Below are positions 4,840 through 54,521 of a stretch of 64,000 nucleotides of DNA, one piece after another. Below the pieces are notes generated by a model. It saw nothing but the letters and a program-made list of their open reading frames with translations. It ran no database searches and was not told where the DNA came from. The stretch is from positions 806,001 to 870,000 of the forward strand of contig NZ_CP055930.1 of assembly GCF_013927005.1 (NCBI RefSeq), given 5' to 3'. The stretch is from Enterobacter sp. RHBSTW-00175. Lineage in GTDB: Bacteria; Pseudomonadota; Gammaproteobacteria; Enterobacterales; Enterobacteriaceae. Within the stretch, counting starts at the first letter, position 1; every line of letters starts with the position of its first letter. The position numbers and the translations under genes were made by a program.

Positions 4840-5594
<755 letters not shown>

Positions 5595-6587
5595 ATGGAC
5601 TTAGTCATGTCCTTATTACAAAAGGGATTATTAGAAAAGGCATTAGACCTTGCCATTTCTGAATCATTCTTCAATGCAACGTCGCCTGATGGTATAAAGA
5701 ATGCTTTAAAAGCTGGCTATGATATTAATGCTGTTCATAATAACGGAGACAATGCCCTTTTTAGCTGCAGAACCCTGGAAGCCATGGATTGCCTGCTAAG
5801 TTATGGAATTAATATACACCATATCAACGGACATGGGCAAAATGCGCTCTTTCATCAAAAAAACCCAGAAATACTGAAGAAACTGATTGGACTGGGTTTA
5901 GACACCTCGCATACGGATACTAATGGCTACACATGCATTTTTGAACATTACAGGAATGCTGAAGGACTGACAGAATTAATTAATGCTGGTTGTGATATAA
6001 ATCACATCGATAAAAAAGGAAGAAATATTCTCTTCCTGCCCCTCTCCCCGGAAGTTTTATCCGTAGCAATAGATGCTGGATGCAATGTCAATCAAATTGA
6101 TCATTCAGGGAAAGGGTTTATTGACAATGTATATGATTATGAATTACATGATATCATTCTCTCGCATATTGATAGATTTGACAGAAGAACGCTGCATGTA
6201 GATTTTTGTAATCTCGACTCAGCCTTTTTCTTGTATTACCTTTCTGAACATGGATTCAAAATAGAACTTAATAAAGACCATTTCACCATTAACAGTTACA
6301 TTGGTGATTATAAAGAAATCTTATCCATACTTGATTTCATCAGTGAAATTCATGATATTCACTTCTATAAATACAAAGGCGGCCCTCTCTATAAAGATAT
6401 CGACAAGCGAATTGTAAAGTGGATGATAAGAAATAAGCTCTTGGTTGATTTATCAAAAATAAATAAACACAAGGATTACGAAGAAATTAATTTATACAAA
6501 ATCCGTCGCGAACAGAAAGAAATCTCCAAGCATTTAAAACCTGCTAAAAGTATATCTGTAACAGTTAAAAATGGCGGAAGATTGTGA
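5595..6587 (+). CDS. Ankyrin-repeat protein
   Basis: I place the start at the second ATG (5595) because GGGGGTG just upstream is a good Shine-Dalgarno; an ATG at 5583 would overlap it. The 330-residue product has four to five ankyrin-type units of about 30 residues. Their repeated phrases include ALKAGYDINAVHNNGDNALF, LLSYGINIHHINGHGQNALF, LIGLGLDTSHTDTNGYTCIF and LINAGCDINHIDKKGRNILF. The unit is unusual in ending ALF or LF where most ankyrins have TPLH. The C-terminal 150 residues are not repeats and are basic at the end. Ankyrins bind proteins; the partner is unknown. Low GC suggests transfer. Confidence 0.75.
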   Translation: MDLVMSLLQKGLLEKALDLAISESFFNATSPDGIKNALKAGYDINAVHNNGDNALFSCRTLEAMDCLLSYGINIHHINGHGQNALFHQKNPEILKKLIGLGLDTSHTDTNGYTCIFEHYRNAEGLTELINAGCDINHIDKKGRNILFLPLSPEVLSVAIDAGCNVNQIDHSGKGFIDNVYDYELHDIILSHIDRFDRRTLHVDFCNLDSAFFLYYLSEHGFKIELNKDHFTINSYIGDYKEILSILDFISEIHDIHFYKYKGGPLYKDIDKRIVKWMIRNKLLVDLSKINKHKDYEEINLYKIRREQKEISKHLKPAKSISVTVKNGGRL

Positions 6588-7360
6588 GAGCTTATATGTG
6601 TGATTTATTCGAATTGCTTCAATATACTGCCTCAACATGAACAAAGAAATTCAGCATTAACTATATTGGGAATTACTCTATGAAACGTATGGTGCTAAGG
6701 GTCTGACGCCTCTGCCTGGTGATGTGGAAGCAGCAGGCAATTTGAAAATATCTGCTCGTTGTTTAGTGAACTTGTCAATCATTACCCAGTGATATTGGTT
6801 ATCAGCACTCGTGCTGGATCACGGCACTTCTGGAAATAAAATTTAATGAGGTAAAGGATTGTCAGACGTATTCAAGAACTGCCCGTCGCTGATAGCCAGT
6901 ATCAATGTCAAATCAGGTTCTGATCTCCTAATCGTGCTCTCGCGATCAGTTTTCATAGAAACAGTATCCTTTATGCTCAGAAAGGCATATACCCCTAAAG
7001 TAGCTCAGGTTTATCTGGCTGAGGCTATGACGCGAAACCATTAGGGAATCTGAAAAAAGTAAAGACTGTGTGATTTGTGAGCTTGATTGAATGCACTGTG
7101 AGCTCACGCCGCTGGCGATATTGCTTAAACACCACCGGCAAATAGATCGATAGTCCCCACGGAGGAACGAGGGCATATGCCAGCTTACGTTGTTCAGGAA
7201 CTTCTGCTTAGTGCCAGAAGCAGACATTTCTAGCTTTAAAACTGGGAGCAAGTCAGGGCAGCTCTTTGCAGTATCGTTTGACCGAGCACTCATTCAGGAG
7301 CCCCAAAAAAAGATACGATATTTTTTTCGACTTGTACATCAAAGAGCAAAGGAAGCAAAG
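6588..7360. other. No gene recognised
   Basis: About 770 bp between the ankyrin gene and the ATPase gene. Frames are short, overlap on both strands and lack ribosome sites. A partial hairpin GCTTAGTGCCAGAAGC at 7206-7221 resembles one at 12424-12438 (see findings). It may be the remnant of older island genes. Confidence 0.4.
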
Positions 7361-9958
7361 ATGTCTGAATTAGCACAAGAATCAATCGGAACCAATGACT
7401 TCGAAAAGTGGCTGAATGAACGTAGTAACTGGCTTCAAACGGCAGCAAAACAGCTTATCGAGAATAAACGTTTACCAAATGAGGTCGAACTCACTGAGCT
7501 GGTTCGACTCTGCAAACTGGAAGCAGCTAAACAAAATGACCCTGGGTTCTTGAAGGTTGCACCTGGCTCATTCTCAGCAGGGTTGCTACAGCGAATTGTA
7601 CGTATTGAAGAAGTAAGCCAAGTATTTGGTGTAAATGCCATCAAACCAGGGGCGTCCTTACCATTCGGAGCTGGTAGTTTAGCTGTTATATATGGGCAGA
7701 ATGGCTCAGGGAAAAGTAGTTTTTCTCGTCTGCTCAAACAACTCTGTGGCTCACGTTCAAGGGACGAAATCCGCCCGAATGTTTTCAGCAGCGAAGAGCA
7801 TACATGCAGTGCTCAATGTCGAATCACCATTGATGGTAAACCCGTAGAAATCAATTGGCAGGCGGGGGCTGCCCCACATCCGATGCTCAAGTATGCCCAA
7901 GTATTTGACTCGAAAACTGCGACTCAATATATGGGACGCACTGAATCAAGCTACGAACCGAGCAGCATGCGTTTTATATCTTTGCTCATTCAGATCTCAG
8001 GAATGGTTTCTGAACAATTAAGTCGAGAGAAGGAAAAGCTTGTCCGTGCTCTTCCACTTTTCCCAAGTGATCTTACAGAGACCGCCGAAAATACTTGGTT
8101 CTACTCTCTTAAAGCATCAACCTCCGCTGAGAAAATTGAATCGTTTTGCCAATATGGGAATGATTTGGAAGATGAGCGTATCAAAGGTGAAGCTCTGTTA
8201 GCAGAGAAAGACATCAAGGGACGCCTGATTGCAATTAGTAAGGAAGAGATTGCCTCAGAAAACATTAAGCAGGCCATGAGGTTATTGAAGGAAGGTCTTG
8301 CGGATGGGAAAGCCGAGGAATTGTTTAAGGCAAAAGAATTGGCTGTTGCAGCAAGAAAGGCTGCCAATATAGTTGCACAGCAGGCATTCGCAACAGCCCC
8401 TCTACAAGGCGTTGGTGAAACGGCTTGGAAGCTAATGTGGGATCAAGCGCGAAACTACTCTATTGTTCATGCTTACCATAGCCGCGAATTTCCCGTTACT
8501 ACTGGAGGTGCGTATTGTGTGCTCTGCCAGCAGAAACTTACGGAGGAAGGCTCAGCTCGACTCAAAAGTTTTGAGGCTTTCGTTACGGCTGGTTTAGAGA
8601 CCACGGCAAAAACTGCGGAAGCCACTAGCGCTGAACTCATTGCGAAGGTCGTTCAGTTACCTTCAATAGAGGATTGGATTGCACGGCTGGCTCAATTGAA
8701 ATTTGATGAGACCTTTGCTCGTGCCTGTTATGAAACTTTGAAAGCAAGGCGCTCACAGTTTGAGGCATGTACCGCCGTTGGTTCTATCATCGCATTCGAT
8801 TGGGCGCTTATTGATCAGGCAGTTGAAAAACGTGCTATCGACTTAATTGCTGAGAAGATTAGTTTGATGCAATTGCAACAAGATGGGCAACGCCAGCAAC
8901 TTGAAAAACGCATTAAGCAACTCAAGGCACTGCAATGGTTATGTCAAAACAAAATGGCAATTCTCGCCGAGCGTGAGCGCTTGGTTGCAGTGGATTTGCT
9001 AGATAAAGCTGTGAGACTAACGGCCAGCAATTCCTTGACAACTAAGCGTACCGAACTAGGGAGAACTGAGCTTGATGCTGGATATCAGAGCCGTTTTGAT
9101 GCGGAGTTAAAGGTACTTGGTGGGCGACGTTTGCCGGTAGTGCCGCAGAGCAAAGCTCAAGGTAAAGGAGTAATAACTTTTGGGCTTACCCTTGTCGGGG
9201 CACGAGCTGGCTTCACTCCTGATGTAATACTCAGTGAAGGAGAAGCCCGCATTGTTGCATTAGCGGCATTCTTGGCCGATACGACTGGTTCGAATCAGTT
9301 AGCCCCCTTCATCTTTGATGACCCTATTTCGTCATTAGATCAAGACTTCGAAGAGCGGGTTGTAGCTAGGCTTGTCGAGTTAGCGAAGACCAGACAGGTC
9401 ATAATCTTCACACACCGCCTTTCGCTTGTTTCCATCATTGATGCTGTAATTAAAAAGCACAGTGAGAATCCGGCTAATGAGAAAATTAACCATACCGTGC
9501 AGTCGCTTAGACGATTAGATAAAATTTCGGGAATCTTGGCGCAACACAGCTTGCGGGATGCCAAGCCTGAAAAGTCGCTTAATATGATTAGGGATCATGT
9601 CATCCCTAAGCTCAAAAAGCATCAAGCCGATGCAGATGCCGATGTTTATGATCTTACGGCAAAAAGTGCATGCAGTGATTTTCGGATAATCTTGGAACGA
9701 ATAGTAGAATTTGTCCTTTTAAATGATGTGATTGTCCGGTTCAGACGTGATGTCAATACTAAAGGGAAGCTGCGGGGTATCACCAAGGTAATAGCAGAAG
9801 ACTGTGATCTTATTGACGCGCTGATGACCAAGTATTCAGTTTACGAGCACTCTCAATCCGATGAGCTGCCTCTGGTTCCGGTTGAACTCGATGAATTCGA
9901 AAAAGATGTATTGGAGCTCATTGCATGGATAAATGAGTTTAAAACTCGAATCGGCTGA
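7361..9958 (+). CDS. AAA_13-family zinc-hook ATPase, RloC/PrrC-like (probable anti-phage)
   Basis: The start is set at MSELAQ (7361), which has GGAAG six bases upstream; the frame is open back to 7190 but without a ribosome site. The 865-residue protein has Walker A GQNGSGKSS (residues about 112-120), a coiled-coil middle with a CVLC zinc-hook motif near 385, the ABC signature LSEGEAR near 623 and Walker B FIFDDPISSLDQ near 650. This SMC-like plan is that of AAA_13 proteins, including RloC and PrrC anticodon nucleases. The C-terminal helical part has RIILE near 773 and YEH near 828, the Arg-x3-Glu...His pattern used by those nucleases. No restriction genes lie nearby. tRNA cleavage is inferred, not shown. 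Confidence 0.7.
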   Translation: MSELAQESIGTNDFEKWLNERSNWLQTAAKQLIENKRLPNEVELTELVRLCKLEAAKQNDPGFLKVAPGSFSAGLLQRIVRIEEVSQVFGVNAIKPGASLPFGAGSLAVIYGQNGSGKSSFSRLLKQLCGSRSRDEIRPNVFSSEEHTCSAQCRITIDGKPVEINWQAGAAPHPMLKYAQVFDSKTATQYMGRTESSYEPSSMRFISLLIQISGMVSEQLSREKEKLVRALPLFPSDLTETAENTWFYSLKASTSAEKIESFCQYGNDLEDERIKGEALLAEKDIKGRLIAISKEEIASENIKQAMRLLKEGLADGKAEELFKAKELAVAARKAANIVAQQAFATAPLQGVGETAWKLMWDQARNYSIVHAYHSREFPVTTGGAYCVLCQQKLTEEGSARLKSFEAFVTAGLETTAKTAEATSAELIAKVVQLPSIEDWIARLAQLKFDETFARACYETLKARRSQFEACTAVGSIIAFDWALIDQAVEKRAIDLIAEKISLMQLQQDGQRQQLEKRIKQLKALQWLCQNKMAILAERERLVAVDLLDKAVRLTASNSLTTKRTELGRTELDAGYQSRFDAELKVLGGRRLPVVPQSKAQGKGVITFGLTLVGARAGFTPDVILSEGEARIVALAAFLADTTGSNQLAPFIFDDPISSLDQDFEERVVARLVELAKTRQVIIFTHRLSLVSIIDAVIKKHSENPANEKINHTVQSLRRLDKISGILAQHSLRDAKPEKSLNMIRDHVIPKLKKHQADADADVYDLTAKSACSDFRIILERIVEFVLLNDVIVRFRRDVNTKGKLRGITKVIAEDCDLIDALMTKYSVYEHSQSDELPLVPVELDEFEKDVLELIAWINEFKTRIG

Positions 9959-10231: not shown

Positions 10232-11359
10232 CTAATCAACTTTTGAATTACTCAAATATTCTCTCATTCCCTCATCGATTGAATCTTTATGAAAAATAGA
10301 ATTCATTTCATTATGAACGGCTGTCAATAATGTATCGACTTGCAGAGATAACTTTAGCAGCTCACCTTTTTTTTCGTCAGTGTCAAATATCTTCCTGGTT
10401 CCATCAGGGACCTCCAGTTTCTTTGCCTCGTCAAAATTATGCCATAACCAGTCAAGCCAGCGCTGTGTTTCGCTTAGTATTGCAAGTTCATAGAAGTGAC
10501 CTCTTAAGAGGTTGCCAATATCAGCATGATACATAATAGATGCAATATCAAAACTACTGAGGTTTATTTCTATGCTTTCCTCATGCGCATCTGTTTTGAT
10601 ATTTTTAAGTAATCTTATTGATTTCCTTAAGCCGCCTAGCGTTGTGTTGCAGCGGCTCTCAATATAATTAATATGAAGGAACGGCGTGTTATAAATCCGC
10701 TGGTTATCCTTTTTATTTAAAATTGCCACACCTCTGTCAACTTCATTGCCTGTATCTTGATATCTGGCATTATTCCACCAAACAGCCGGGACTACATCCA
10801 CATCTCTGGCTAAAGAGCCGCCAGTTATTTTTACTGCTTTAGAGTTTTCAGTGTGAACCTTTGCAGCCGGGAAAGCAGCCCTGAGGCTATCTTCAATTTC
10901 TTCCCGTAGGATCTGGAGTACATCTACAGCTTGTTTCTTGGATAAAACATAACTATTTGCTTTGCTTCCTTCGTTTGAAAAAACGAATAGCTGTTCATCA
11001 ATAGTAAGAATATCTACATCGCTAACGCCTTTAATATGGATGTTAAGCGGTACAGAACCCTGCAAACGAAAGGATGCTGTAATTTCCTTTTTTTCCAATC
11101 GGTTAGATAGTTGGTTTTCTATCCTTTTCCCTGTTTCGATGCTAACCCTAGTATAAACTGGATCAACTTCCTGCATGGCACCTAATGCATATTTCGTAGC
11201 TGATTTCCCGGAAGCCCTGCTTTCCCAGGTTTCTTGTTGTAGAGATTTATTCAGTAAGATCTCTCTGCTTTCAAGCCCGCTGTCCATTGCAAATATTTCA
11301 TTTATCCCTCTTCTTCGCGTTCTTAAACGTTCGATTCGTGATGAAAAGTTATCGGCCAT
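10232..11359 (-). CDS. CBASS CD-NTase (cGAS/DncV-like nucleotidyltransferase)
   Basis: This 375-residue protein carries the nucleotidyltransferase signature LQGSVPLNIHIKGVSDVDIL: Gly-Ser at 101-102 and metal-binding Asp114 and Asp116. A third acidic site lies in ARDVDVVPA (Asp186/188). CD-NTases of CBASS make cyclic di- or trinucleotides on phage infection to trigger an effector. The start codon follows the stop of the Cap15-like gene by one base (TAA-C-ATG), so translation is almost certainly coupled. There is no Cap2/Cap3 or HORMA/TRIP13 pair, so this is a minimal (type I) operon. The product nucleotide cannot be read from the sequence. The clade needs a tree. Confidence 0.85.
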   Translation of the reverse strand: MADNFSSRIERLRTRRRGINEIFAMDSGLESREILLNKSLQQETWESRASGKSATKYALGAMQEVDPVYTRVSIETGKRIENQLSNRLEKKEITASFRLQGSVPLNIHIKGVSDVDILTIDEQLFVFSNEGSKANSYVLSKKQAVDVLQILREEIEDSLRAAFPAAKVHTENSKAVKITGGSLARDVDVVPAVWWNNARYQDTGNEVDRGVAILNKKDNQRIYNTPFLHINYIESRCNTTLGGLRKSIRLLKNIKTDAHEESIEINLSSFDIASIMYHADIGNLLRGHFYELAILSETQRWLDWLWHNFDEAKKLEVPDGTRKIFDTDEKKGELLKLSLQVDTLLTAVHNEMNSIFHKDSIDEGMREYLSNSKVD

Positions 11360-11360
11360 G

Positions 11361-11984
11361 TTATAACTTCCTTAGCTTCATTGTCCCAAAGGTATTCCGA
11401 CCTCTGCCATTAAAATACTCGCCATCAGCAGTTGTCAGGCTTTTATCAAAAATTAATTCTGCAAATCCCATATGCGGACTTAACTCTTTTTCGTTTATTC
11501 TCGGATCATTCCTGTAGTTGTAAACTAACCGATAACCTATTTCTCCATCATATATAATGGAGGCAGCTATGCTGTCGGAACCTGACTGTGAGGTTTGCAA
11601 CCGTATATGAACTTTATCCCATGACTGGAATATATTAATTTTAGCATGCCATGAAAAAACGTCTCCTTCCTTGTTTTCGCCGCGCCCTTCACAATCCCAC
11701 TCTCCCGACAGGTCCGGGACATTTATTATTTTTGATATTAACTTCCACTTCCATAACCTTGAGTCAAAAATCCAGTAGAGAATTAGATACATTGTACCTG
11801 CACTAATAAGCGAAGAGACCGTTGGGGTCATTACAGATTTCGCCTCAATATAAGAATTATTTTCAAGGTAAGTTAAAATAACAAAAACCAAAAACCCTGA
11901 TATCAGAGAAGCTAATGAACCAATTATTTTACCTACCTTACTCCTGTTAAAACCACTTATAACAATATATTCATGGCTTTTCAT
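11361..11984 (-). CDS. cap15: Cap15-like CBASS membrane effector (2TM plus beta-barrel)
   Basis: The 207-residue protein begins with two membrane helices (about 18-40 and 56-74). A cytosolic beta-rich domain opens with VPDLSGEWDCEGRG and continues INIFQSWDKVHIRLQTSQS. That order, and the LSGEW and QSW...S-S motifs, match the SMODS-associated 2TM beta-strand-rich effector family that includes Cap15. In that family the barrel binds a cyclic dinucleotide and the helices oligomerise to disrupt the inner membrane. It is the first gene of the operon, with the CD-NTase directly behind. A longer upstream frame at 12219-11971 overlaps its start by 14 bp but has no features of a gene. Confidence 0.8.
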   Translation of the reverse strand: MKSHEYIVISGFNRSKVGKIIGSLASLISGFLVFVILTYLENNSYIEAKSVMTPTVSSLISAGTMYLILYWIFDSRLWKWKLISKIINVPDLSGEWDCEGRGENKEGDVFSWHAKINIFQSWDKVHIRLQTSQSGSDSIAASIIYDGEIGYRLVYNYRNDPRINEKELSPHMGFAELIFDKSLTTADGEYFNGRGRNTFGTMKLRKL

Positions 11985-12690: not shown

Positions 12691-13329
12691 TCTCTGATCA
12701 TGCTAATGAGTCCCTGAATCTATGATACATACGTCTGGGCGGGTCTCGTACAAATATGAAAGCCCAGCATCCATCCCTCACTCACACCAGCCATTTGCTT
12801 TACTTTATATCCTCCTGACAACTCGGAAGAAAATTAAGCATCGACCTTTTGAGATTGATTAGTTTGGCTTTATTTCATCCGTTACCCATCAGACCTAATC
12901 TGTCGGGCCCGAAACGCATTACTTCGCGGTTCGGCGGAGCTTACCAGCCTGCCGGTTAGCGCAGCTGGGCTGACGACCCGGCTGGCCGTGGTGGAACCGG
13001 AGGGGGCATTTAGGTTCGTTAAGGGAGATGGGGTTCAATGCCGTTAATAAAAGTAAGGGAAAGATCTGACTCGTTATGCGGGTTCGAGTACCAAAAACAT
13101 AAGTTGCTGACAACAATCTGCATTCACTCTGAGCTAACGAGCTGAATGCTGTGGCCAGGATCAAATAACCAATCTCGTCATCACAGTAGACTCAGCCTAC
13201 ACAAGCCAGTTTTTTGCTCCAAAGCTCAAATCTGTAGACAAAATGTACAACCTGAATGTATAACGACCAATTGGGATTATTCTTACTTGCTGACTGATAT
13301 CTGGCACCCTGCCCACGGCTCTCACTTGG
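12691..13329. other. No gene recognised
   Basis: About 640 bp upstream of the thymidylate-synthase homologue. The part at 12910-13000 is GC-rich and partly self-complementary, unlike its surroundings, and may be a short repeat element. Frames on either strand lack ribosome sites. A promoter for the 13330 gene should lie in the last 150 bp, but I cannot place -35 and -10 boxes with confidence. Confidence 0.4.
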
Positions 13330-14280
13330 ATGACAAATATGGAAATTGAGAAAAACACGATTGATGATGTTATGCGGGCTGTGTTTGAAAATATCCTGTC
13401 AGATGGGGTTCCTGTTGAAACAACACGGGGACCGACAAAAGAGATTCTGGGTACACACATCATTTTAAACAATCCGATTTGCCGGATTAGCAGAACAGAA
13501 TCCAGGGGTAAAATATTCACCTGTCTGGGGGAGTTAATGTGGTACCTATCGGGCAGTGACGATGTCGAATCTATTCGCTATTACATCTCAAAATACCGGG
13601 ATTCTGCAGAAAGTGATGGCACGATTAATGGCGCTTACGGGCCTCGTCTCTTTGGTACCAAGAATGGAATCAACCAGATTGAGAATGTCATCCGGCTTTT
13701 AAAAAAACGCAACACATCCAGGCGAGCAGCCATACAACTGTTTGACGCAAATGATATAGCCCATCCCTTCGTTGATGTCCCCTGTACTGTCGGGCTCCAG
13801 TTTGCGATTAGGAATGATTCCCTCGATATGTTTACATTCATGCGCTCTAACGATGCACGGGCAGGACTGGTTCACGACATATTTGCATTCACGATGCTTC
13901 AGGAAATGATTGCAAAAACCCTCGGTTTAAATTTGGGTGTTTATCGCCACTATGCGGCAAGTCTGCACATCTACATCGAGGATATTCCCCTCATCGAAGC
14001 TGCGCTCAAAGAGGGTTATGCGCCATCTGTACCAGTTATGGTAGCAATGCCCACAGAGGATATAACTAACTACTTATGCAACATTGTTGATGCAGAGAAA
14101 CGCATCCGTGAGGGCGATATTCCAGATATTGATGCGCTAAGGCTGAGTGAATACTGGAAAGATGTCCTTCGTATGCTGGCGATATTCAGATGCAAAAAAG
14201 ATAAGAACCTGCCAGCTGCTCAGGCCATTGCAGGGAAATTGCAAAATCAGTCCTACAAAATTTATCTTGAGTGGTTGTGA
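13330..14280 (+). CDS. Thymidylate-synthase homologue with dCMP-type active site (putative deoxycytidylate hydroxymethylase/methylase)
   Basis: The 316-residue protein has the thymidylate synthase core: paired Arg131-Arg132, the nucleophile in VDVPC (Cys152), the phosphate site MRSND (Arg172, Ser173, Asp175), Gly179 and the H-x-Y motif (His213, Tyr215). Spacing from Cys to Arg-Ser is exactly that of E. coli ThyA (146 to 166). The residue matching ThyA Asn177, which reads the uracil ring, is Asp183. Asp at this place is the hallmark of T4 dCMP hydroxymethylase (Asp179) and of engineered dCMP-using enzymes. I infer a cytosine nucleotide substrate. It is followed 9 bp later by the gene at 14290, clearly one operon. 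The start could also be the ATG at 13339. Confidence 0.75.
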   Translation: MTNMEIEKNTIDDVMRAVFENILSDGVPVETTRGPTKEILGTHIILNNPICRISRTESRGKIFTCLGELMWYLSGSDDVESIRYYISKYRDSAESDGTINGAYGPRLFGTKNGINQIENVIRLLKKRNTSRRAAIQLFDANDIAHPFVDVPCTVGLQFAIRNDSLDMFTFMRSNDARAGLVHDIFAFTMLQEMIAKTLGLNLGVYRHYAASLHIYIEDIPLIEAALKEGYAPSVPVMVAMPTEDITNYLCNIVDAEKRIREGDIPDIDALRLSEYWKDVLRMLAIFRCKKDKNLPAAQAIAGKLQNQSYKIYLEWL

Positions 14281-14289
14281 GGGAGAAAA

Positions 14290-15228
14290 ATGAAACGACA
14301 GGACCTAATTGATGAAATTTCAGAACAGCTCAAATCATTCAGTACACATGAAACCCCGCTTGAGGGATTAGATACCCCCGACAAAATCACAACGCTCGCC
14401 GCACAGATACTCGACAGCAAGCGTCGCATTGAGTACGTCGGAGCCATTGGCAGAAATAAGATATCCCCGCTACGGGGAAATCCCCACTGTGATATCTTTG
14501 ATCCGCTACGGGCTGCGTGGTTGCATGTTTATGAAGGGAATGTAGATGAGGCGTGCTGGCTTATTTTCCTGTCTACCCACTTTGGCAAACATCTTAAGTA
14601 CGGTTGGCAGTTGTGCGCCGACATTTACGGTGGCCTCGGTGGCGATGTATGGACCTGGGAGAAAGTGGTTGCGGAAGTGGACACCTTTCACGCCTGGTAT
14701 GAGGGCTGCTATCGCCAGATGCTGGCAGACGGTCAGAAAAGAAGGTTTGGGAACCACAGAAAGTACGAATCCCTCAGACCGGACTGCAAGCGCCCCCTTC
14801 CACGCGTCATCAGCTCATATGTAGCGTGGGTAGGAAACGCAGGTAGTCATGAAGCGCGGTTTGCTGAAGCCAAAGCCGCATCCAGTAGTCAGGAAGAGTA
14901 CTTTGATATTCTTTACCGGAGCATGAAGGCGGTTTTGTCATTTGGGCGGGCTGGAAGGTTCGACTTTCTGACGATGCTCATCAAGTTCGGCATTATTGAT
15001 GCCAAGCCGGGGACGCTGTATCTGAACGGGGCAACAGGACCTCTGGATGGCGCAAACCTTCTGTTTTACGGTGAAGCGAGAAATGCGGCCAATTATAAAG
15101 TATTGGACGATCTTCTGGCGAGGCTCAGCGCCTTCATGGACATGGGGCAGCTTGAAATGCAAATTCTTGAAGATGCTCTTTGCAACTGGCAGAAATCACC
15201 CTCTCGCCACGTTTACTTTGGAGGATGA
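14290..15228 (+). CDS. Putative alpha-glutamyl/putrescinyl thymine pyrophosphorylase clade 3 protein
   Basis: The ATG at 14290 lies nine bases after the previous stop, with GGGAGAAAA as ribosome site. The 312-residue protein has FGNHRKYESL near 155, then SYVAWVGNAGSHEARF, YLNGATGPLDGANLLF and a closing LCNWQKSPSRHVYF. From memory these belong to the family annotated as aGPT-Pplase clade 3, relatives of phage enzymes that replace the pyrophosphoryl group on hydroxymethyl-pyrimidines in DNA with an amine. The pairing with a hydroxymethylase-like enzyme upstream fits a two-step base or nucleotide modification. The family call is moderate and the substrate is inferred. Its stop is two bases from the stop of the convergent ImmA gene. 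Confidence 0.6.
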   Translation: MKRQDLIDEISEQLKSFSTHETPLEGLDTPDKITTLAAQILDSKRRIEYVGAIGRNKISPLRGNPHCDIFDPLRAAWLHVYEGNVDEACWLIFLSTHFGKHLKYGWQLCADIYGGLGGDVWTWEKVVAEVDTFHAWYEGCYRQMLADGQKRRFGNHRKYESLRPDCKRPLPRVISSYVAWVGNAGSHEARFAEAKAASSSQEEYFDILYRSMKAVLSFGRAGRFDFLTMLIKFGIIDAKPGTLYLNGATGPLDGANLLFYGEARNAANYKVLDDLLARLSAFMDMGQLEMQILEDALCNWQKSPSRHVYFGG

Positions 15229-15230
15229 CT

Positions 15231-16313
15231 TCAGGACAGATCTTCACGGTTATATTTGACTTTGAATTTGGCAAAATGATCAAAGGGGATTCTTTGGGCG
15301 TGCTGTAACTGCCCCAGCACTATCCCTTTTGATACACCAATTTTCCGGGCAAATTTAATAATATTTTTCCAGTTCCGCCCAGTCAGCGTGTCAAACTCTG
15401 CACGGTATGCTGGGGGAATCAGGACGCTGCTGGAAAACTCGTTTGCTTCCTGTTCTTCTTTTTCAGAAAGGCCACTCATTCCTTCTATGCGGTGCTGTTC
15501 ACAGTTGTGCAGAACCAGATGGCCAACCTCATGAAACAACGTAAACCAGAAATGATCGTCTCTCAGATACCGAAAACTCATTATCAGTGTCGCTTTGCCG
15601 TGTTCAAAAAAACAGGTAGCGCCGCTTGCTGGACATCCTTTTGGCGTTGGCAGGATCACAAGCGCTACACCAGCGTCAGCGAGTATGCTGCGTATCGCAG
15701 GAAGAAATACTTTGGGATCAGGCTCAAGAGAATGTTTTCTTAAATCTTCCAGACTGCCTTTAAGTATTTCCTTATCCCATGCATAAGTTCTCTGTTTCCG
15801 CGAAATATATTCAGCTTTCTTGAGCCAAGTAATTACGGCCATTTCTTCCGTTCTGAAAGCTTCGGATTTTCTGAAAGCTATAGCAGTCTGTTTATTTTTA
15901 TAATAATTAAACCATTCGGGTACGGATGAAACGCCGAAAAAGCTCAGGCAACACTCGACTTTTTTATTACCGCTCAGGCCCTTCGGAATCCAACCCAGTT
16001 TACTCATATCTGACGTAGGCAGAGACTGAACCCATTCATTATTTTGGCGAATGATCGCATCTTTATGTTGGCGATATTTGTCTTCACGACTGAGCCAGAA
16101 AGTCGTGCTGACATCGAAGAGAGATTCAAGCTTGTTGGCAATCTTCTCAGTGAGAATAAGCTCACCAGAAATCAACTCACGACCTTTAATCAGGGAAAGG
16201 CCAACTCTTTTACTGAGCTCTTCTTCGTTGAAACCATGTTCGTCCATGAGGTCTATTATGGTATCTCCGGGGGCTGACACCCAGTCCGGGTTAAATCCGT
16301 TATCAGAAACCAT
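15231..16313 (-). CDS. XRE-family antitoxin/regulator fused to ImmA/IrrE metallopeptidase
   Basis: The 360-residue protein has an N-terminal helix-turn-helix of HigA type (GDTIIDLMDEHGFNEEELSK to about residue 75) and a C-terminal ImmA/IrrE (COG2856) zinc peptidase with HEVGH at 261-265. A downstream acidic segment, EKEEQEANEFSSSVLIP, is also typical of the family. Such proteins control mobile-element repressors or act as antitoxins whose peptidase senses stress. It overlaps the upstream HigB-like gene by 11 bp, so the pair is co-translated. It faces the pyrophosphorylase gene tail to tail. It may be a separate toxin-antitoxin cassette or a regulator of the neighbouring nucleotide module. Confidence 0.85.
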   Translation of the reverse strand: MVSDNGFNPDWVSAPGDTIIDLMDEHGFNEEELSKRVGLSLIKGRELISGELILTEKIANKLESLFDVSTTFWLSREDKYRQHKDAIIRQNNEWVQSLPTSDMSKLGWIPKGLSGNKKVECCLSFFGVSSVPEWFNYYKNKQTAIAFRKSEAFRTEEMAVITWLKKAEYISRKQRTYAWDKEILKGSLEDLRKHSLEPDPKVFLPAIRSILADAGVALVILPTPKGCPASGATCFFEHGKATLIMSFRYLRDDHFWFTLFHEVGHLVLHNCEQHRIEGMSGLSEKEEQEANEFSSSVLIPPAYRAEFDTLTGRNWKNIIKFARKIGVSKGIVLGQLQHAQRIPFDHFAKFKVKYNREDLS

Positions 16314-16638
16314 AATCTTCGCCTATATGAACCAGTTTCAACCGGGTTACCCGCCCCCAGTCAAGTGAGTTGTCTGCCTGCCGGGGGGGGGCTAGATGCC
16401 CATTTACAAAGTACATTTTAACCCCTTCTGTGAGGTTAATTGTAATGTAATCGCATCCATTTTCGCATAAAAATTCTGTTTTAAGAAAACCCGGAAGCTT
16501 AGCTACCGATGCTGAAGACCAGATATCAGCACACCGCACGCGCAGTTTTGCAGCTACTGCATCACCGAACAAATTTATCCCTGCTTCTTTGAACTCAACT
16601 GAATCTCTGAGTTCGGAACTGTCACAAAAAATCTGCAA
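16303..16638 (-). CDS. HigB/RelE-like small protein upstream of the XRE-ImmA gene
   Basis: The open frame ends SLDWGRVTRLKLVHIGEDYGF, close to the WxRVxxIxLxEIxDYH ending of HigB-type toxins. It contains KLRVRCADIWSSASVAKLPG and ITINLTEGVKMYFVNGHLAP, which fit the beta-sheet core of that fold. The only start in the frame is a TTG at 16636-16638. The frame stays open for another 33 bp upstream without ATG or GTG (reading NIIFSDKSLSVGNP), so the true start may be a rare codon or may have been lost. Position before a HigA-ImmA fusion supports a toxin role. It is diverged from classical HigB and activity is unproven. Confidence 0.5.
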   Translation of the reverse strand: MQIFCDSSELRDSVEFKEAGINLFGDAVAAKLRVRCADIWSSASVAKLPGFLKTEFLCENGCDYITINLTEGVKMYFVNGHLAPPRQADNSLDWGRVTRLKLVHIGEDYGF

Positions 16639-16671
16639 TGGGTTACCAACGCTGAGCGATTTATCAGAGAA

Positions 16672-17099
16672 TATTATATTCTAATGTATAAAAAATCCAC
16701 GATTTCACGGGTGGTTATGACCAGCTCCCCGTTGATTCACACAGAAGGCTGTTAGCAATGTCCGCAGATCGCTCATAGCAGACATGAATACTCTGCTGAT
16801 TGGCCACTCCGTGCCTGAACGGGCGAGGTACACCATCTACTCAAACGGACAAGTTTATGGATCACTACAGTATTTGAGATAGAGCAGTTTTTATTGACCC
16901 CCTCAGTAATCAGACGCTAAATATCCCGCCACACTTACATTTAGTATGCCATAGAGGGTGTTATTTTGAAGTCGCTAGGCATGTTGGAACCATGCGAGGT
17001 ACTGTGGTTCTACTTTATGGTTCCTTTTTGGAACCCATAACGAAATTAATTTAAACAGAAACATTAAATATCAATACACTATGATTAAAAGTACAGGGA
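16672..17099. other. No gene recognised; tail of the left island
   Basis: About 430 bp of non-coding, partly AT-rich DNA between the HigB-like gene and the left attachment repeat of the P4-like element. An imperfect hairpin lies around 16756-16786 (AATGTCCGC...AGCAGACAT) and another around 17000-17035 (GGTTC...GGAACC words). Neither is clearly a terminator. No tRNA end precedes the repeat at 17100. Confidence 0.4.
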
Positions 17100-17114
17100 C
17101 GCCAGCCCACCAAA
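17100..17114. repeat. Left attachment core of the P4-like element
   Basis: CGCCAGCCCACCAAA, identical to 28018-28032. It ends in CCACCA like an RNA gene 3' end, but the DNA before it is not tRNA. The parental RNA gene, if any, would lie left of this window, which suggests islands in tandem. Confidence 0.75.
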
Positions 17115-17147
17115 TAATGATCCGGATGTGTCCGGTGAAGTACAGAA

Positions 17148-17181
17148 AGCCCGCATGGCACAAGCCCTGCGGGCTTTTTTT
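17148..17181 (+). terminator. Rho-independent terminator next to the left attachment site
   Basis: AGCCCGC (17148-17154) pairs with GCGGGCT (17169-17175), followed by T7. Nearly the same hairpin lies next to the right attachment site (28077-28109), so the attachment core travels with a terminator on both sides. Confidence 0.8.
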
Positions 17182-17224
17182 GTGTCTGTCGTTGTCCGAG
17201 AACATCCGGCTGAATCCGGTGATT

Positions 17225-17278
17225 ATTGGTATACGTTTAGGTATACGGTAGGATGTATACCTAAAAGCGTATACCAAT
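17225..17278. promoter_or_regulatory. Large inverted repeat upstream of int (arm-type sites/operator)
   Basis: ATTGGTATACG-TTTAGGTATAC on the left is mirrored by GTATACCTAAA-AG-CGTATACCAAT on the right. The same 22-base word occurs at 27933-27954 inside the right end of the element. Placement at both ends fits integrase or Vis arm-type binding sites; at this end it also overlaps the int promoter, so autoregulation is likely. Confidence 0.65.
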
Positions 17279-17297
17279 TCATGAAGGAGCGGCCACA

Positions 17298-18488
17298 GTG
17301 GCACGGACAACACGCCCCCTGACCAACACCGAAGTTCTACGTGCTAAGGCGCTAGAGAAGGATCTAACGCTGCATGATGGCGACGGGCTTTTCCTGATAG
17401 TGAAAACCAGTGGCAAAAAACTCTGGCGTTTCCGTTATCAACGTCCGGCAACAAAGCAGCGGACAATGATTGGGCTCGGAGCCTTCCCCGCCCTATCACT
17501 TGCAGATGCCCGAGGGTTAAGAGCGGATTACCTTGCCTTGTTAGCTAATGGCATCGACCCCCAAGTTCAAGCTGAAGTTGCAGAGGAAGAGCAGCAAATC
17601 GCTCTGGACAGTATTTTTTCGACGGTTGCCGCTAACTGGTTCCAACTCAAAAGCAAAAGCGTTACCCCTGATTACGCAAAAGACATTTGGCGCTCACTGG
17701 AGAAAGATGTATTCCCTGCCATCGGTGAGATCCCCGTTCAGCAAATCAAAGCCCGGACACTGGTTGAAGCTCTTGAGCCAATCAAAGCTCGTGGGGCGCT
17801 TGAGACTGTACGTCGGCTGGTGCAGCGCATTAACGAGATAATGATTTATGCCGTAAACACTGGTCTGATTGATGCCAATCCAGCATCAGGTGTTGGAATG
17901 GCCTTTGAGAAACCCAAAAAACAAAACATGCCGACACTACGACCAGAAGAATTACCAAAGCTAATGCGTTCTCTGGTGATGTCGAATCTCTCTGTTTCGA
18001 CTCGCTGCCTGATTGAATGGCAACTTTTGACCCTCGTGCGCCCCTCTGAGGCCTCCGGTGCACGTTGGGCTGAGATCGATCTCGATGCAAAGCTCTGGAC
18101 TATTCCAGCCGAGCGGATGAAGGCCAAGCGTGAGCATATTGTTCCCCTATCGCCGCAGGCATTAGATATTCTAGAAGTGATGAAGCCAATCAGCGCTCAT
18201 CGTGAACATGTTTTTCCGAGTCGAAATGACCCAAAACAAGCAATGAATAGCCAGACGGCAAATGCTGCTTTAAAACGAATTGGGTATGGAGGTAAATTGG
18301 TTGCACATGGATTGAGGTCTATTGCAAGCACAGCTTTAAATGAAGAGGGTTTTAATTCTGATGTCATTGAGGCAGCTTTAGCGCACAGCGATAAAAATGA
18401 AGTCAGGAAAGCTTATAATCGCTCTACGTATCTTGAACACAGGAAACAACTAATGGATTGGTGGGGGAACCATGTATCTTCTGCGTAA
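17298..18488 (+). CDS. int: P4-type tyrosine integrase
   Basis: I take the GTG at 17298 as start, with AAGGAGC ten bases upstream. The 396-residue protein has the DUF4102 N-terminal arm-binding domain (HDGDGLFLIVKTSGKKLWRF), a central SAM-like domain and the catalytic domain. Catalytic residues are Arg in LVRPSEASGARW, His and Arg in VAHGLRSIAS and the nucleophile Tyr in KAYNRSTYLEHR. It catalyses integration and excision between the phage and chromosomal sites, here CGCCAGCCCACCAAA. Length and motifs match P4 Int. It is the first gene after the left attachment site, convergent with the Pycsar operon and separated from it by a shared terminator. Confidence 0.95.
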   Translation: MARTTRPLTNTEVLRAKALEKDLTLHDGDGLFLIVKTSGKKLWRFRYQRPATKQRTMIGLGAFPALSLADARGLRADYLALLANGIDPQVQAEVAEEEQQIALDSIFSTVAANWFQLKSKSVTPDYAKDIWRSLEKDVFPAIGEIPVQQIKARTLVEALEPIKARGALETVRRLVQRINEIMIYAVNTGLIDANPASGVGMAFEKPKKQNMPTLRPEELPKLMRSLVMSNLSVSTRCLIEWQLLTLVRPSEASGARWAEIDLDAKLWTIPAERMKAKREHIVPLSPQALDILEVMKPISAHREHVFPSRNDPKQAMNSQTANAALKRIGYGGKLVAHGLRSIASTALNEEGFNSDVIEAALAHSDKNEVRKAYNRSTYLEHRKQLMDWWGNHVSSA

Positions 18489-18526: not shown

Positions 18527-19876
18527 CTATACAATATACACACCTATAATGTTTCGATAATAAATAGCTGCCCCTCCCCCTCGTACAATAACCTCCATTG
18601 TATGTAAGCCTCTAAAAGATGTTGCTTCTGACAAGGTTAATATTAAACCTTCGCTATCGCGTTTTAAATTTATTCGAGAAGCGTTATCCACCTTAATTAA
18701 GCTTTCATTTTCCACACGAACAACATAATCCTCGGATAAATCATCCTTAGCTTCTTCCCCATGATTTTTTTTGCAAAAAATTATATTTAGATTACCTAAT
18801 CCAGGGTAAATCCTTAATTTAAATATTAATTTTTTTTGTTTTGGCAAAAATCGAGATATTGATTTATATTCTACTTCTTTATCATCCTCGTCAACATAAC
18901 AACCAAAAATAAAATGATTAGGATGTAAAACAGATGAGGACATTTTTTTATCATTCAATTTGAATGGCAACAAGCTTTGATATTCATCCATATTTAATAA
19001 TCGAATTCGCCTGTCTATAGGCCTTCCTTCCTTATTCGTTATATTCGGCTCTATAAACTTAATCTCTCGCCCTGCTTTACTCTTCAATGAAGTATATTCC
19101 AAAGGAAAATCAATATAATCTAAAATCCCTTGCCCTAACATGGCTGTATTTTTGTCTGCTAGTTGTTGTAACTTGGCTGTCATATCAACTGGAAGCCCTA
19201 ATGCTGTTACTTCGCACGATTCTCCTAAACCAAAGTTACCCCAAATAACTTCATCTTCTGACCCATAATCCAAGCCAATTCGGACACCTAGATCAATTTC
19301 AGTGCCAAGGTCCTCGTTCAAAGATGGGAATATATACTCCTTCAAAATCAATCTGAGTGTTGATGCAGCGTTTATAGCATCTGCTATTGCATCCTCTTTG
19401 CTTACATCAGACCTACCAAAGAAGGCCATCAAAGCATCGCCCATAAGTCGATGAGGATAACCATCTAGCGCTCGAACAATGTCAATGCAAGCTTGAAGTA
19501 TTCTATTTTTAACGATATATGCTTGTTCTAGCGGCAATAAAAGTGATAAGCGGGAGCTTTTACGTATATCAATAAACATCGTCACTATGTATTGATTATG
19601 CGTTACACTAAGACCATTTAACATTGTAAGTTCAGGATGGGTGCCAATTTTATGTTCGTTTAATCCAAGCTTATTAAACAGAGGTCTAATTTCACGCTGA
19701 TAATCATACTCCAAGAAATTGCTCGGGCTTGTTGAAAAAGATTCTGAAATAAGTACCGAATCTCCCCTCCGACTTTCCATACCAACAGACAAAGCGCCAT
19801 CCATGGTCATTCCTTTTCTTAAGGTTATATTTTTTATACCCTTAAAGTTTTTCTCGGTAATATCTTTAAAACTCAT
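18527..19876 (-). CDS. pycC: Pycsar pyrimidine cyclase PycC
   Basis: The 449-residue protein has a class III nucleotidyl cyclase domain: TMFIDIRKSS with metal ligand Asp103, HRLMGDALMAFFG with Asp147, and IGLDYGSEDEVIWGNFG. From about 310 to the end there is a beta-rich domain like the AGS-C sensor found behind cyclases and CD-NTases in defence loci. In Pycsar the cyclase makes cCMP or cUMP upon phage infection; which one cannot be read here. Its ATG overlaps the TGA of the effector gene by four bases. The int-psu interval where it sits is the documented P4 hotspot for anti-phage cargo. GC is lower than the P4 backbone, consistent with a cassette. Confidence 0.85.
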   Translation of the reverse strand: MSFKDITEKNFKGIKNITLRKGMTMDGALSVGMESRRGDSVLISESFSTSPSNFLEYDYQREIRPLFNKLGLNEHKIGTHPELTMLNGLSVTHNQYIVTMFIDIRKSSRLSLLLPLEQAYIVKNRILQACIDIVRALDGYPHRLMGDALMAFFGRSDVSKEDAIADAINAASTLRLILKEYIFPSLNEDLGTEIDLGVRIGLDYGSEDEVIWGNFGLGESCEVTALGLPVDMTAKLQQLADKNTAMLGQGILDYIDFPLEYTSLKSKAGREIKFIEPNITNKEGRPIDRRIRLLNMDEYQSLLPFKLNDKKMSSSVLHPNHFIFGCYVDEDDKEVEYKSISRFLPKQKKLIFKLRIYPGLGNLNIIFCKKNHGEEAKDDLSEDYVVRVENESLIKVDNASRINLKRDSEGLILTLSEATSFRGLHTMEVIVRGGGAAIYYRNIIGVYIV

Positions 19877-20430
19877 AATAGAACTCCATTTGCAAAATCA
19901 ACGAATTTTGAAAAGCAAAGACAAATCATGCAAAAATATGCATATTTCAAATATCTAACCGCATCAGAAAACAACAAGAACTTTTCCTTGGCAATTCCCG
20001 CCAAAATATAGCTTTGAGCACACATATCCCTTAATAACCCTTCATCATCTTCGTCATTATATTTTGAAAAGTATTCATTCACATCGTTTAGATTACCAAT
20101 AAATACAAATGAAACCAGTGATCCACTTGCCTCGTGAACTTTATTTACCGACTTCATTTTTGGAATGATACTTCGCAGCGAATAAACCACAGATAAAACA
20201 ATAAAAAAACCGATCAAAAAAACCATTACACAAAAAAACAAGTTATACAAATTGCTACCTAGAAACAAACCTTTAAAGCTTCCTATTTTATTCGAGAATA
20301 TTGTTAAACTCGCCCCACTCGCAGCCAAAAGCAAGGCTGCCTTGTTATTTGTGGTGGAAATATAACCATCAGTCCTTTTTATTATATCAAACTGTAGTTT
20401 TATTTTCTCTTTGTTTTCTTGAATATCCAC
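19873..20430 (-). CDS. pycTM: Pycsar transmembrane effector PycTM
   Basis: The 185-residue protein opens KIKLQFDIIKRTDGYISTTN followed by NKAALLLAASGASLTIFSN, the signature of the Pycsar effector family (DUF5706). Helices about 28-46, 60-88 and 160-182 are hydrophobic, and a charged loop (YNDEDDEG) lies between. On binding a cyclic pyrimidine, PycTM is thought to damage the inner membrane and abort infection. It is the first gene of a two-gene operon with pycC, ATGA overlap. Promoter elements should lie in 20431-20520, which is AT-rich; I cannot fix them exactly. Confidence 0.85.
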   Translation of the reverse strand: MDIQENKEKIKLQFDIIKRTDGYISTTNNKAALLLAASGASLTIFSNKIGSFKGLFLGSNLYNLFFCVMVFLIGFFIVLSVVYSLRSIIPKMKSVNKVHEASGSLVSFVFIGNLNDVNEYFSKYNDEDDEGLLRDMCAQSYILAGIAKEKFLLFSDAVRYLKYAYFCMICLCFSKFVDFANGVLL

Positions 20431-44407: not shown

Positions 44408-47400
44408 ATGAGCAAAATATCTGTCATCTCAAAACTGACTGGTGTGGAGTCAACCACAGAAGGCACTCAGGTCACTCTGACCCACTCTTCTGTCATTAAG
44501 CTTCACCTTGAGCGCTCCGATATCGACCACTTTGCCCGCAGTAGCAACGATCTGATTATCACCCTTCACTCGGGTGAAACCATCACCATTAAGAACTTCT
44601 ACGTTGCGGATGCGCAAGGACTTAGCCAGCTGGTACTTGAAGAGGATGGCGGCCTGCTGTGGTGGGTTGATGATCCGGCGGTGGTGCACTTCGAGTCCAT
44701 CGCTTCCACGGATGTACTGCTTGCCGCAGCGGGGACAGAGTCCGCAACCGGTGGCGCCGTGTGGCCCTGGGTACTTGGCGGTGTTGCCGCGGCAGGGGGC
44801 ATTGCCCTTGCCGCAGGTGGCGGTGGTGGCGGCGGTGGTGGTGGTCACAGTAGTGGCGGCAATGGCGGGCAAAACCCTGGTACCGATCCAACAGACCCCA
44901 CTACACCGGTAGACCCGGCCGATCCTGATACCACCGCCCCGGCGGCCCCGACGATCACCGGTGCCAGTGATGATGTTGGCTCAATTCAGGGGGCGCTCTC
45001 TCGCGGTCAAAGTACCGATGATACGCGCCCTACCTTCAGCGGCGTGGCGGAAGCTGGCGCGAAGGTGACAATTTATGACAACGGTAAAGCCATCGGCACA
45101 GTGACTGCGGGCAGTGACGGCAAATGGCAATTCACTCCCTCTTCAGATTTGAGCGAAGGCGCGCACAGCATTACCTCAAAAGCCACCGATAGCGCAGGTA
45201 ACACTGGCCCTGCATCCCCATCGTTTACCGTGATAATAGATACCACTCCACCCGCAACACCCGGCGTGCTGAGCGCCAGCGATCGCACGGGCTCCAGCGC
45301 CATTCCGATCCTGAGCGGCCAGTACACCCATGCCGGCAAACCCGTGTTGAGCGGAAAAGGTGACCCGGGCGATACCATCACCCTGTATGACAAAGGGGTG
45401 AAAATTGGCGAAACGACGGTAGATGCGAAAGGTAACTGGAGCTTTACGCCAGGTAAGACGCTTTCAGAAGGTGCGCACTCCCTGACGCTCACCGAAACCG
45501 ATCCCGCCGGGAACACCAGCGGGATGTCCAGGCCTCTGAACTTTATTATCGACACTCAGCCGCCTGCTACCCCAGTTGCACAGATTAACGGCACGGGGGA
45601 TCAGGTCACCGGCACGGCCGAAGCCGGCAGTATTATTACCATCAAAAACAGCGCCGGAACGGTGATTGGGACCACCACCACAGACGGGACTGGCCACTTC
45701 ACCCTTACGCTCTCGCCTGCCCTCACCAACGGTGAAAAAATATCGATAATCGCCACTGACGAAGCCGGTAACCCGAGTGCCCCGGCAAACCTGAATGCCC
45801 CGGATACCACACCGCCGGCCATTCCTGATGGCGTGGCGGTATCTCAGGATGGCGACCACGTTACCGGCACAGCCGAGCCGGGCAGTACCATTATCGTGAA
45901 GGGGGAAAACGGCCAGCAAATTGGTACGGGAACCACCGACAATAACGGTCATTTCGACGTAACCATCTCCCCGGGGCAAAAAAACGGTGAGCTGCTGGAC
46001 GTCACGGCAACCGATGGCGCAAACAACACCAGCCAGCCGGCCCATGCCACTGCCCCGGATACCACTCCACCGGCCGCACCGACCGACCTGGATGTCTCAG
46101 CAGATGGCACGGAGCTAACCGGTAAAGCTGAAGCGGGCAGCACCGTCACCGTGACCAACAGCACGGGCACCGTGGGAACGGCGCTGGTGGACGATCAGGG
46201 TAACTTTACAATCACGCTCAACCCGGCACAAAACAACGGTGAAACCTTAACCGCACGGGCAACCGACCCGGCAGGCAATACCGGCGATCCGGCCAGTACC
46301 GTTGCGCCAGACACGACACCAGCGCAAACGCCAGAGATAATCGGCGTGACGGATAACCAGGCTGACTTCACCGGCAGCGTGGCTAATGGCGGCATCACAA
46401 ACGACAACCACCCTACCATCTACGGTAAAGGCGAAGCGGGCACTACGCTGGACCTGTACACCAACGGCAATAAAATTGGCTCGACGGTGATTTTGTCTGA
46501 CGGCACCTGGAGCTTCCCGGCGGATGTGCATCTGGTAGAAGGCGGGAACGTCATTACGGCAAAAGCGGTAGACAGCAAAGGCCAGGAGAGCGGCTGGTCC
46601 GCCACCTGGAGCATTACCGTCGATACCAGCGCCCCGAACGCCCCTGTTATCAGCCAGGTGATTGACGATGCTGCGGCCAGTACAGGGAATATCACCAGCG
46701 GGCAGCTCACCAACGACACCACCCCAACCTTTAACGGCACCGGGGAGGCTGGCGCAACCATTAACGTAATGGAAAACGGCAATATCATAGGTACTGCGCT
46801 GGTCGCGCCAAACGGGTCATGGACATGGACACCGTCCAGTGCCTCCGCCTTTGTCACCGGGACACACAACCTGAGTTTTGTGGCCGTTGATGCTGCGGGT
46901 AACCACAGCACCACCGCCACCAGTTTTGTGCTTAACCTTTCAACGGTAGCCCCTGGCAAACCGACCATTGATAACGTAACCGATGATGTGGGCAGCGAGA
47001 AAGGCCCGGTCACCAGTGGTCAACCGACCGATGACACCCAGCCCCTTTTCGAAGGGAAAACGGATGTGGGTAGCACCGTTGCCATTTACGACGGCAGCAA
47101 GTTCCTGGGCAACGCAACGGTAGATGCCTCCGGCAACTGGAGTTTTACGCCGCCTCTGCCGCTTGGCGAAGGGTCGCACAGCATTACGGCGGTCGCCATC
47201 AATGCCGCCGGGAACACCACCACTTCCAGCACGTTTAACGTGGTGGTGGATACCATTGCGCCAGATGCCCCGTCCACCCCGGTTGTCACCGTGAACCCGG
47301 ACGGCACGGACGTCATACTCGCACCAGGGCAGCCAACCCGCGATACCACGCCGACCCTGAGCGGAACCGGCACAAAAGGGGATGTGATCACCATCTACAA

Positions 47401-54442: not shown

Positions 54443-54458
54443 CAGCCGAAAATAATGA

Positions 54459-54479
54459 CCCGGGCGCTTGCCGCCCGGG
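54459..54479 (+). other. Intercistronic hairpin between adhesin and tolC-like gene
   Basis: CCCGGGCG (54459-54466) pairs with CGCCCGGG (54472-54479) around CTTGC. No T-run, so it is probably an mRNA-stabilising or attenuating hairpin that sets the ratio of adhesin to transporter. Confidence 0.75.
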
Positions 54480-54521
54480 CATAGACAACATAAAGCGGTA
54501 CTCTTTTATTAGGGACAAGAC

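Follow-up and report, generated by a model that had tools for sequence, protein, structure and literature searches.

The locus described here combines parts whose closest described counterparts belong to different systems. Phage pathways of thymidine hypermodification, such as that of phage M6, join a pyrimidine hydroxymethylase to a protein of the amino acid:DNA transferase (ADDT) family, and phage ADDT pathways employ a DNA kinase. Cytosine-type hydroxymethylases are represented by MilA, a CMP 5-hydroxymethylase from an antibiotic cluster, and by the dCMP hydroxymethylase of the lytic phage T4. In PD-lambda-2, HigB-like and Xre-peptidase proteins serve abortive infection, according to the relevant passages of PMC9519451, and single-stranded DNA (ssDNA) turns on two M78 proteases, PprI and CapP, in the sections of PMC10904395 that treat them. 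In a stretch of 64,000 nucleotides from Enterobacter sp. RHBSTW-00175 (NZ_CP055930.1, positions 806,001 to 870,000; 'the window', within which coordinates are counted), we find a four-gene unit in which such parts are brought together: TS, encoding a hydroxymethylase-type enzyme of the thymidylate synthase superfamily; PP, encoding a protein of the aGPT-Pplase3/ADDT families; M78, encoding a helix-turn-helix (HTH) protein fused to an ImmA/IrrE (M78) metallopeptidase; and SM, encoding a small HigB-like putative toxin. We favour a reading, to which we give a probability of roughly 0.4, in which the unit is a mobile two-arm defence cassette and a modified-cytosine product, or the damage it causes, frees the toxin.

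The unit resembles each of these systems in part. Like PD-lambda-2 (as portrayed in the corresponding part of PMC9519451), it has a HigB-like gene followed by a gene for an Xre-type HTH plus peptidase, and its M78 protein matches the PADLOC family PD-Lambda-2_B (E 4.5e-30); it differs in carrying the convergent hydroxymethylase and ADDT-family pair. PD-lambda-2 has a third component, a P4 antitoxin relative, which was not among the PADLOC families listed for ten window proteins, the presence of a model for it in the library being unchecked, and we do not file the unit under PD-lambda-2. It shares with phage thymidine hypermodification a pyrimidine hydroxymethylase type and an ADDT-family protein, PF18724 being matched in both, but it is cellular, its hydroxymethylase is of cytosine rather than uracil type, no DNA kinase is seen, and it is tied to a toxin-antitoxin-like half. 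With CapP-CapH and PprI-DdrO it has the M78 protease in common; in those systems a separate repressor is cleaved, whereas here HTH and M78 are fused and the partner is HigB-like.

An earlier note, made from the sequence of this window, had proposed the first two genes as a candidate defence operon, a hydroxymethylase homologue followed by an aGPT-Pplase clade 3 protein. The pair is real and was correctly named: both open reading frames (ORFs) are present, adjacent on the plus strand with 9 bases between them (Table 1), and profile searches place both in the families proposed. The operon, however, extends no further than two of the four genes that make up the unit, the M78 and SM genes at 15231-16638 having been overlooked. 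M78 is convergent with PP, their stop codons lying 2 bp apart in the window, and SM leads the minus-strand pair and shares 11 bp with the start of M78. We collected 113 loci by their PP gene, comprising 80 from genomes (the most similar 80 among 201 relatives), 25 from 24 viral contigs, which partly repeat genome loci, seven from plasmids, and the window itself; distinct proteins number 107 of 112 for TS, 106 of 112 for M78 and 97 of 106 for SM. The expectation that the pair would be conserved together elsewhere is borne out, since 112 of the 113 loci also hold TS, the sole miss (L046) being cut by a contig end. M78 is likewise found in 112, its only miss (L099) falling at a contig end, and a stand-alone pair is therefore rejected; SM is found in 106, and its misses are contig ends except at L003, L005 and L081. 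Where all four genes are present they occur in the same order, TS and PP forward followed by M78 and SM in reverse, at 104 of 105 loci, the exception being a Sorangium locus (L044) where all four genes share one strand. The stop-to-stop distance between PP and M78 has a median of 1 base and does not exceed 50 bases in 105 of 111 cases.

The four genes are also inherited together. Pairwise protein distances, not adjusted for host descent, correlate among all of them (0.81 for PP and M78, 0.70 for TS and PP, 0.65 at the lowest), and none of 500 permutations reached values as high; this test used 84 of 101 loci, with L018, L054, L074, L007 and near copies dropped. When 126 M78 proteins were placed on a tree, the 111 linked to a pair grouped together (one change, support 99), with the other 15 outside, which would fit a single origin for the link between the pair and SM-M78; L007, L018 and L074 were not included, so that spirochaete and planctomycete copies are absent from the tree. 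By record title, the unit occurs in Pseudomonadota, Bacteroidota, Acidobacteriota and Chloroflexota, in a myxobacterium and a planctomycete, and in Leptospira and Arthrobacter. PF18746 was matched in only four of 398 genomes drawn from the phylum, the window's own among them; three of these have the whole unit, and the fourth (G091) has the protein alone, a divergent copy at 1651-2556 of locus L216 beside a beta-lactamase-family gene.

Comparison with mobile replicons indicates that the unit is transferred as such. When the whole window was searched by blastn, a Pantoea agglomerans plasmid locus (L001) matched the segment given in Table 1 as the transferred cassette, and only 66 bases (16718-16783) of the remaining window matched this 12.9-kb locus; by annotation, the plasmid carries phage-like genes. 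A viral contig locus (L088) is 94.7% identical over 13219-16711, with two short flanking pieces in addition. Since high identity ends just outside the four genes, these have moved together. PP was matched by eight of 72,556 plasmid records, all of which also match TS, and in each of the seven plasmid records inspected the pair faces a convergent ImmA/IrrE-type gene. L088 and another locus, L089, lie near the two ends of one 118.6-kb viral contig, which may mean that the unit is duplicated there or that the assembly overlaps. The interval 12700-17300 was matched by 470 of the 5426 genomes in an E. coli collection, none over 80% of the query, and the 30 matches listed are confined to the part beyond 16769, towards the integrase.

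TS matches PF00303 (E 5.5e-27), and against solved structures its profile lies nearest to MilA (5b6d, E 1e-70), the best thymidylate synthase following at E 1.1e-26. The host also encodes a full-length thymidylate synthase distinct from TS (E 3.0e-129), so TS is supernumerary. The active site of TS is conserved across the collected loci (112 proteins, that of the window included): the nucleophile Cys152 is present in all 112, as is Ser173 at the site of MilA Ala176; the catalytic Glu68 is present in 111, the other being a gap; Asp183, the base-selecting residue of the cytosine site, for which Asn is the alternative, is present in 111, the exception (L054) being a broken copy; and Arg131, at the site of MilA Lys133, is present in 105, with Lys in the other seven. 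According to the portion of PMC5175136 concerned with these sites, CMP is favoured by Ala176 and Lys133 of MilA and dCMP by Ser and Arg, with Asp186 indicating a cytosine substrate; Asp179 is the cytosine-selecting residue of the T4 enzyme, in the matching passage of PMC6400193. By these rules the Ser and Arg pattern would signify a preference for dCMP and the Asp a preference for cytosine, so the census supports a cytosine deoxynucleotide as the substrate, and TS is best taken as probably a dCMP 5-hydroxymethylase. TS resembles MilA and the T4 enzyme in fold, nucleophile Cys and cytosine-selecting Asp, but it differs from MilA in having the Ser and Arg of dCMP enzymes in place of the CMP-type pattern, and from both in lying outside an antibiotic cluster or lytic phage.

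PP far exceeds the curated cut-offs of both PF18746 (aGPT-Pplase3; E 1.3e-94, 317.2 bits against 25) and PF18724 (ADDT; E 9.8e-66, 222.2 bits against 26.2), the latter also matched by the ADDT of phage M6, and it was correctly related to aGPT-Pplase by the earlier note. Its predicted structure, built from 68 rows, is all-helical (pLDDT 96.0) and matches that of a phage protein named as an amino acid:DNA transferase (BFVD A0A5P8D6E5, prob 1.00, E 1.1e-4, TM 0.44/0.47); a resemblance to HhH DNA glycosylases, through matches to DUF2419, MutY, OGG and EndoIII, is graded as suggestive. Foldseek returned no match for the model in the PDB at E 0.001, a PDB sequence search with the PP profile gave chance-level rows (best E 0.41), and tblastn of PP against phage records gave no match.

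In searches with a profile made from 40 of the 112 proteins, M78 matches HigA (4mcx, E 4.3e-10) over profile positions 12-84, and its peptidase matches CapP weakly (7t5t, E 0.0013). The HExxH motif is intact in the window (H261, E262, H265), together with a further Glu (E287); of 112 M78 proteins, 111 keep the motif and 110 the additional Glu, the one and two exceptions being gaps. SM is less readily placed. The window protein alone had no match in Pfam, PADLOC or NCBIfam, none of ten single SM proteins exceeded the Pfam cut-off (L055 met HigB-like_toxin at E 0.069), and a PDB sequence search with the SM profile gave chance-level rows (best E 0.99). When the SM family profile, made from 76 of 106 proteins, was compared with 37 HigB proteins, it matched them (Prob 94.1, P 1.2e-7), and the controls, namely alignments of M78, of PP and of an optional fifth gene described below and a reversed SM alignment, all scored below 1. 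Given this match and these controls we take SM as HigB-like and as a putative toxin, an assignment made at the profile-profile level only.

Our preferred model joins these observations as follows. In the first arm, TS would hydroxymethylate dCMP and PP would derivatise the hydroxymethyl-cytosine, either on the free nucleotide or in DNA. In the second, the toxin SM would be held by the HigA-type protein bearing the M78 protease. On infection, the product of the first arm, or ssDNA or lesions caused by it, would activate the protease; antitoxin function would be lost, the toxin freed, and growth would stop before phage release. Hydroxymethyl-cytosine chemistry would then be the discriminating arm, and the HigB-like toxin under an M78-type switch the killing arm. 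Because ssDNA activates PprI and CapP, the trigger could be either DNA damage that the modified base brings about or a ligand of nucleotide type. A more specific version would see here the first cellular immunity built on hypermodified cytosine nucleotides, in which TS and PP convert phage-borne dCMP, arising when host DNA is broken down or dCTP hydrolysed, into a dedicated alarm nucleotide or DNA mark that turns on the M78 protease and liberates the HigB-like toxin; we consider this somewhat unlikely.

The earlier note had supposed that the pair might make a poison. Since two further genes belong with the pair, this is not the most natural interpretation, and the HigB-like protein with its HTH-M78 partner is a likelier effector than any pair-made poison. 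It is nevertheless conceivable, if improbable, that a cytosine nucleotide made by TS and PP itself halts phage DNA synthesis, with SM-M78 controlling expression or cassette retention. Such a role would agree with the residue pattern of TS, with the place of PP in a base-hypermodification family and with an additional gene of uracil-DNA-glycosylase (UDG) fold in 29 of the 113 loci, which could excise the base; it sits poorly with the company the pair keeps, which includes M78 at all loci but the one that is cut, with SM-M78 occurring without the pair in 13 genomes, and with the unit showing no kinase that would produce a triphosphate.

The UDG-fold gene, an optional fifth member, is absent from the window; an example is found at L007, 4193-4993. 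It belongs to an unnamed family of about 265 aa with 2326 protein-search matches and no Pfam domain among the best 120 listed. The assignment comes from predicted structure (a model from 44 rows); an alignment of 26 of the 29 proteins showed no UDG kinship when compared with thin Mug/Ung alignments (Prob 0.2). A retron reverse transcriptase, the best PDB sequence match (E 0.05), was taken as chance. At four loci that have the UDG-fold gene (L013, L021, L028 and L049) a small DUF4031 gene also lies between TS and PP.

The converse search, of genomes with the M78 profile, was informative. Full-length relatives (E <1e-80) occur in 15 of 299 genomes; two of these, the window's own and G257, have the pair, and in the other 13 SM and M78 are present and the pair is absent, a genome-wide PF18746 search that covered all 13 having matched only G000, G091, G257 and G355. 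SM is weak at two of the 13 loci (L221, E 4e-4; L229, E 1e-4), and one, L223, ends 228 bases after M78. In our samples, therefore, the pair comes with SM-M78 and SM-M78 need not come with the pair. At two pair-less loci SM-M78 lies between hsdM and hsdS (L225, 6252-10644; L226, 3529-7783) and at a third between hsdM and a GajA gene (L228, 4754-10107). Type I restriction-enzyme relatives are found near it at L217 and L220, and helicase-like genes at L218 and L219, above the Pfam cut-off only at L219, with a GIY-YIG-type (T5orf172/MUG113) protein also at L218; no defence partner was recognised at the other six among the few proteins scanned. The presence of such a HigB-like/HTH-M78 unit within type I restriction operons points to a possible portable guard shared among defence systems.

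These associations bear on another model, in which TS and PP modify cytosine in host DNA or its precursors, and SM-M78 kills if the mark is absent or the enzymes that place it are inhibited. The guard role would be akin to that of toxins inside restriction operons. In its favour, the hsdM/hsdS and hsdM/GajA settings place related SM-M78 units with modification systems; the PP fold resembles, suggestively, base-flipping DNA glycosylases, and phage ADDT relatives act in DNA, going by the PhiW-14 chemistry in the pertinent part of PMC5977210. Hydroxymethylation of nucleoside monophosphates followed by incorporation would, however, presumably replace cytosine without sequence choice, and neither a kinase nor a reader domain is seen in the unit; we think self-marking of this kind unlikely.

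Several observations weigh against the model that we prefer, a cassette in which cytosine modification releases a toxin. In the account of PD-lambda-2 given by the pertinent passages of PMC9519451, it is the HTH-peptidase protein that is toxic and the HigB-like protein that rescues, so the roles of SM and M78 could be swapped here. SM was not detectable at L003, L005 and L081 despite enough flank, and the window SM has Val at the position where 99 of 106 SM proteins have Cys14. Against a strict linkage of PP stands the PF18746 protein of G091, no TS, M78 or SM being found within the 9 kb taken around it. The PP family profile scores only Prob 2.6 against the single M6 ADDT sequence and many polar residues that are invariant in PP differ in M6, and hence PP chemistry may differ from that of phage ADDT. 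In PhiW-14 the side chain is installed in DNA through a pyrophosphoryl intermediate, as set out in the same part of PMC5977210, so PP could act at the DNA level; no nucleotide or DNA kinase is seen among the unit genes. We found no common operator upstream of TS and SM, the best 18-base matches resembling those of shuffled sequence among 38 loci with usable sequence (from the first 40 of 84). The lack of adjustment in the distance correlations and of a baseline for the flanking defence genes (below) belong on the same side.

Table 1. Features of the 64-kb window
Feature	Position	Strand	Assignment	Basis
TS	13330..14280	+	Thymidylate-synthase-superfamily, pyrimidine hydroxymethylase type, probably dCMP 5-hydroxymethylase	ORF, PF00303, MilA 5b6d profile match, residue census
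PP	14290..15228	+	aGPT-Pplase3/amino acid:DNA transferase (ADDT) family	PF18746, PF18724, predicted structure
M78	15231..16313	-	HigA-type helix-turn-helix fused to ImmA/IrrE (M78) metallopeptidase	PF06114 E 2.3e-7, HigA 4mcx, CapP 7t5t, PD-Lambda-2_B
SM	16303..16638	-	HigB/RelE-like putative toxin	Family profile-profile match
Transferred cassette	12893..16711	unstranded		93.2% DNA identity to Pantoea agglomerans plasmid (blastn)
CBASS pair	10232-11984		Cap15 and cyclase	Pfam, PADLOC
ATPase ORF	7190-9958		PDC-S06	Best PADLOC match, E 0, scanned from 7358
Pycsar pair	18527-20430	-	PycC cyclase and PycTM effector	PADLOC E 1.7e-171 (PycC)
Integrase	16769-18488		PRK09692 family

The unit lies in a dense island, with CBASS, PDC-S06 and Pycsar together in its neighbourhood (Table 1). 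The CBASS neighbour was rightly recognised in the earlier note, Cap15 and a cyclase both being found; the ATPase it described as RloC-like is fitted best by PDC-S06, and no RloC appears among the matches listed (25 of 29 families), so that the RloC-like label finds no support here. The Pycsar pair had escaped the earlier note. No PADLOC (2023) model matched TS or PP at E 0.01. At other loci, we scanned 133 of 224 flanking ORFs, from L008-L056 only and with ORFs >900 aa left out. Among the PADLOC matches listed (the best 25 of 106 families), CBASS cyclase, type I and III restriction-modification, Mza and MADS families were matched by one or two ORFs each, counts that stand without a comparison baseline; five of the 133 ORFs match phage integrase. 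These surroundings are relevant to a further explanation, that SM-M78 stabilises mobile elements as an addiction module and TS-PP is a metabolic antidote or cargo, with no part in phage defence. The plasmid records (one of the eight with phage-like genes), the 25 loci in viral contigs and the nearby integrases are all compatible with addiction, but the window unit stands among CBASS, Pycsar and PDC-S06, and elsewhere it is found beside restriction, CBASS and other defence genes; we hold this explanation to be quite improbable.

Other features of the window were noted by eye or from matches listed. Upstream of the integrase lies a stretch similar to the integrase junctions that adjoin ssrA in many E. 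coli genomes among those listed, and a primase-like ORF of 777 aa (25372-27705) suggests a P4-like satellite adjoining the cassette. A 334-aa ORF with ankyrin-like repeats (5583-6587) lies left of the PDC-S06 gene, and the region 44408-59285 has a repetitive adhesin-like ORF of 3344 aa followed by ORFs resembling parts of a type I secretion system.

The earlier note knew of no described defence system of this composition. That holds for the four-gene unit, of which we found no description in the literature searched, key older papers lying outside that coverage; it holds less well for its components, as aGPT-Pplase is already listed by DefensePredictor (2026) among predicted, unvalidated defence domains. 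In the sections of that paper available to us (PMC13092281), thymidylate synthase, in another system, and 5hmdU-kinase domains are validated, the legend of Fig. 6 also names HTH and UDG, such that the figure may show the four-gene unit, and IrrE, ImmA and HigB go without mention in the corresponding main text. Sensing of phage modified nucleotides has been proposed for Dnd systems, in passages of PMC10853773 that are unrelated to the unit.

What the locus offers is a small, defined and mobile unit that ties base-hypermodification chemistry of the phage type to a toxin-antitoxin-like switch. It makes testable both the role of cellular aGPT-Pplase3 proteins and the nature of the ligand or lesion that is sensed by fused HTH-M78 proteins.

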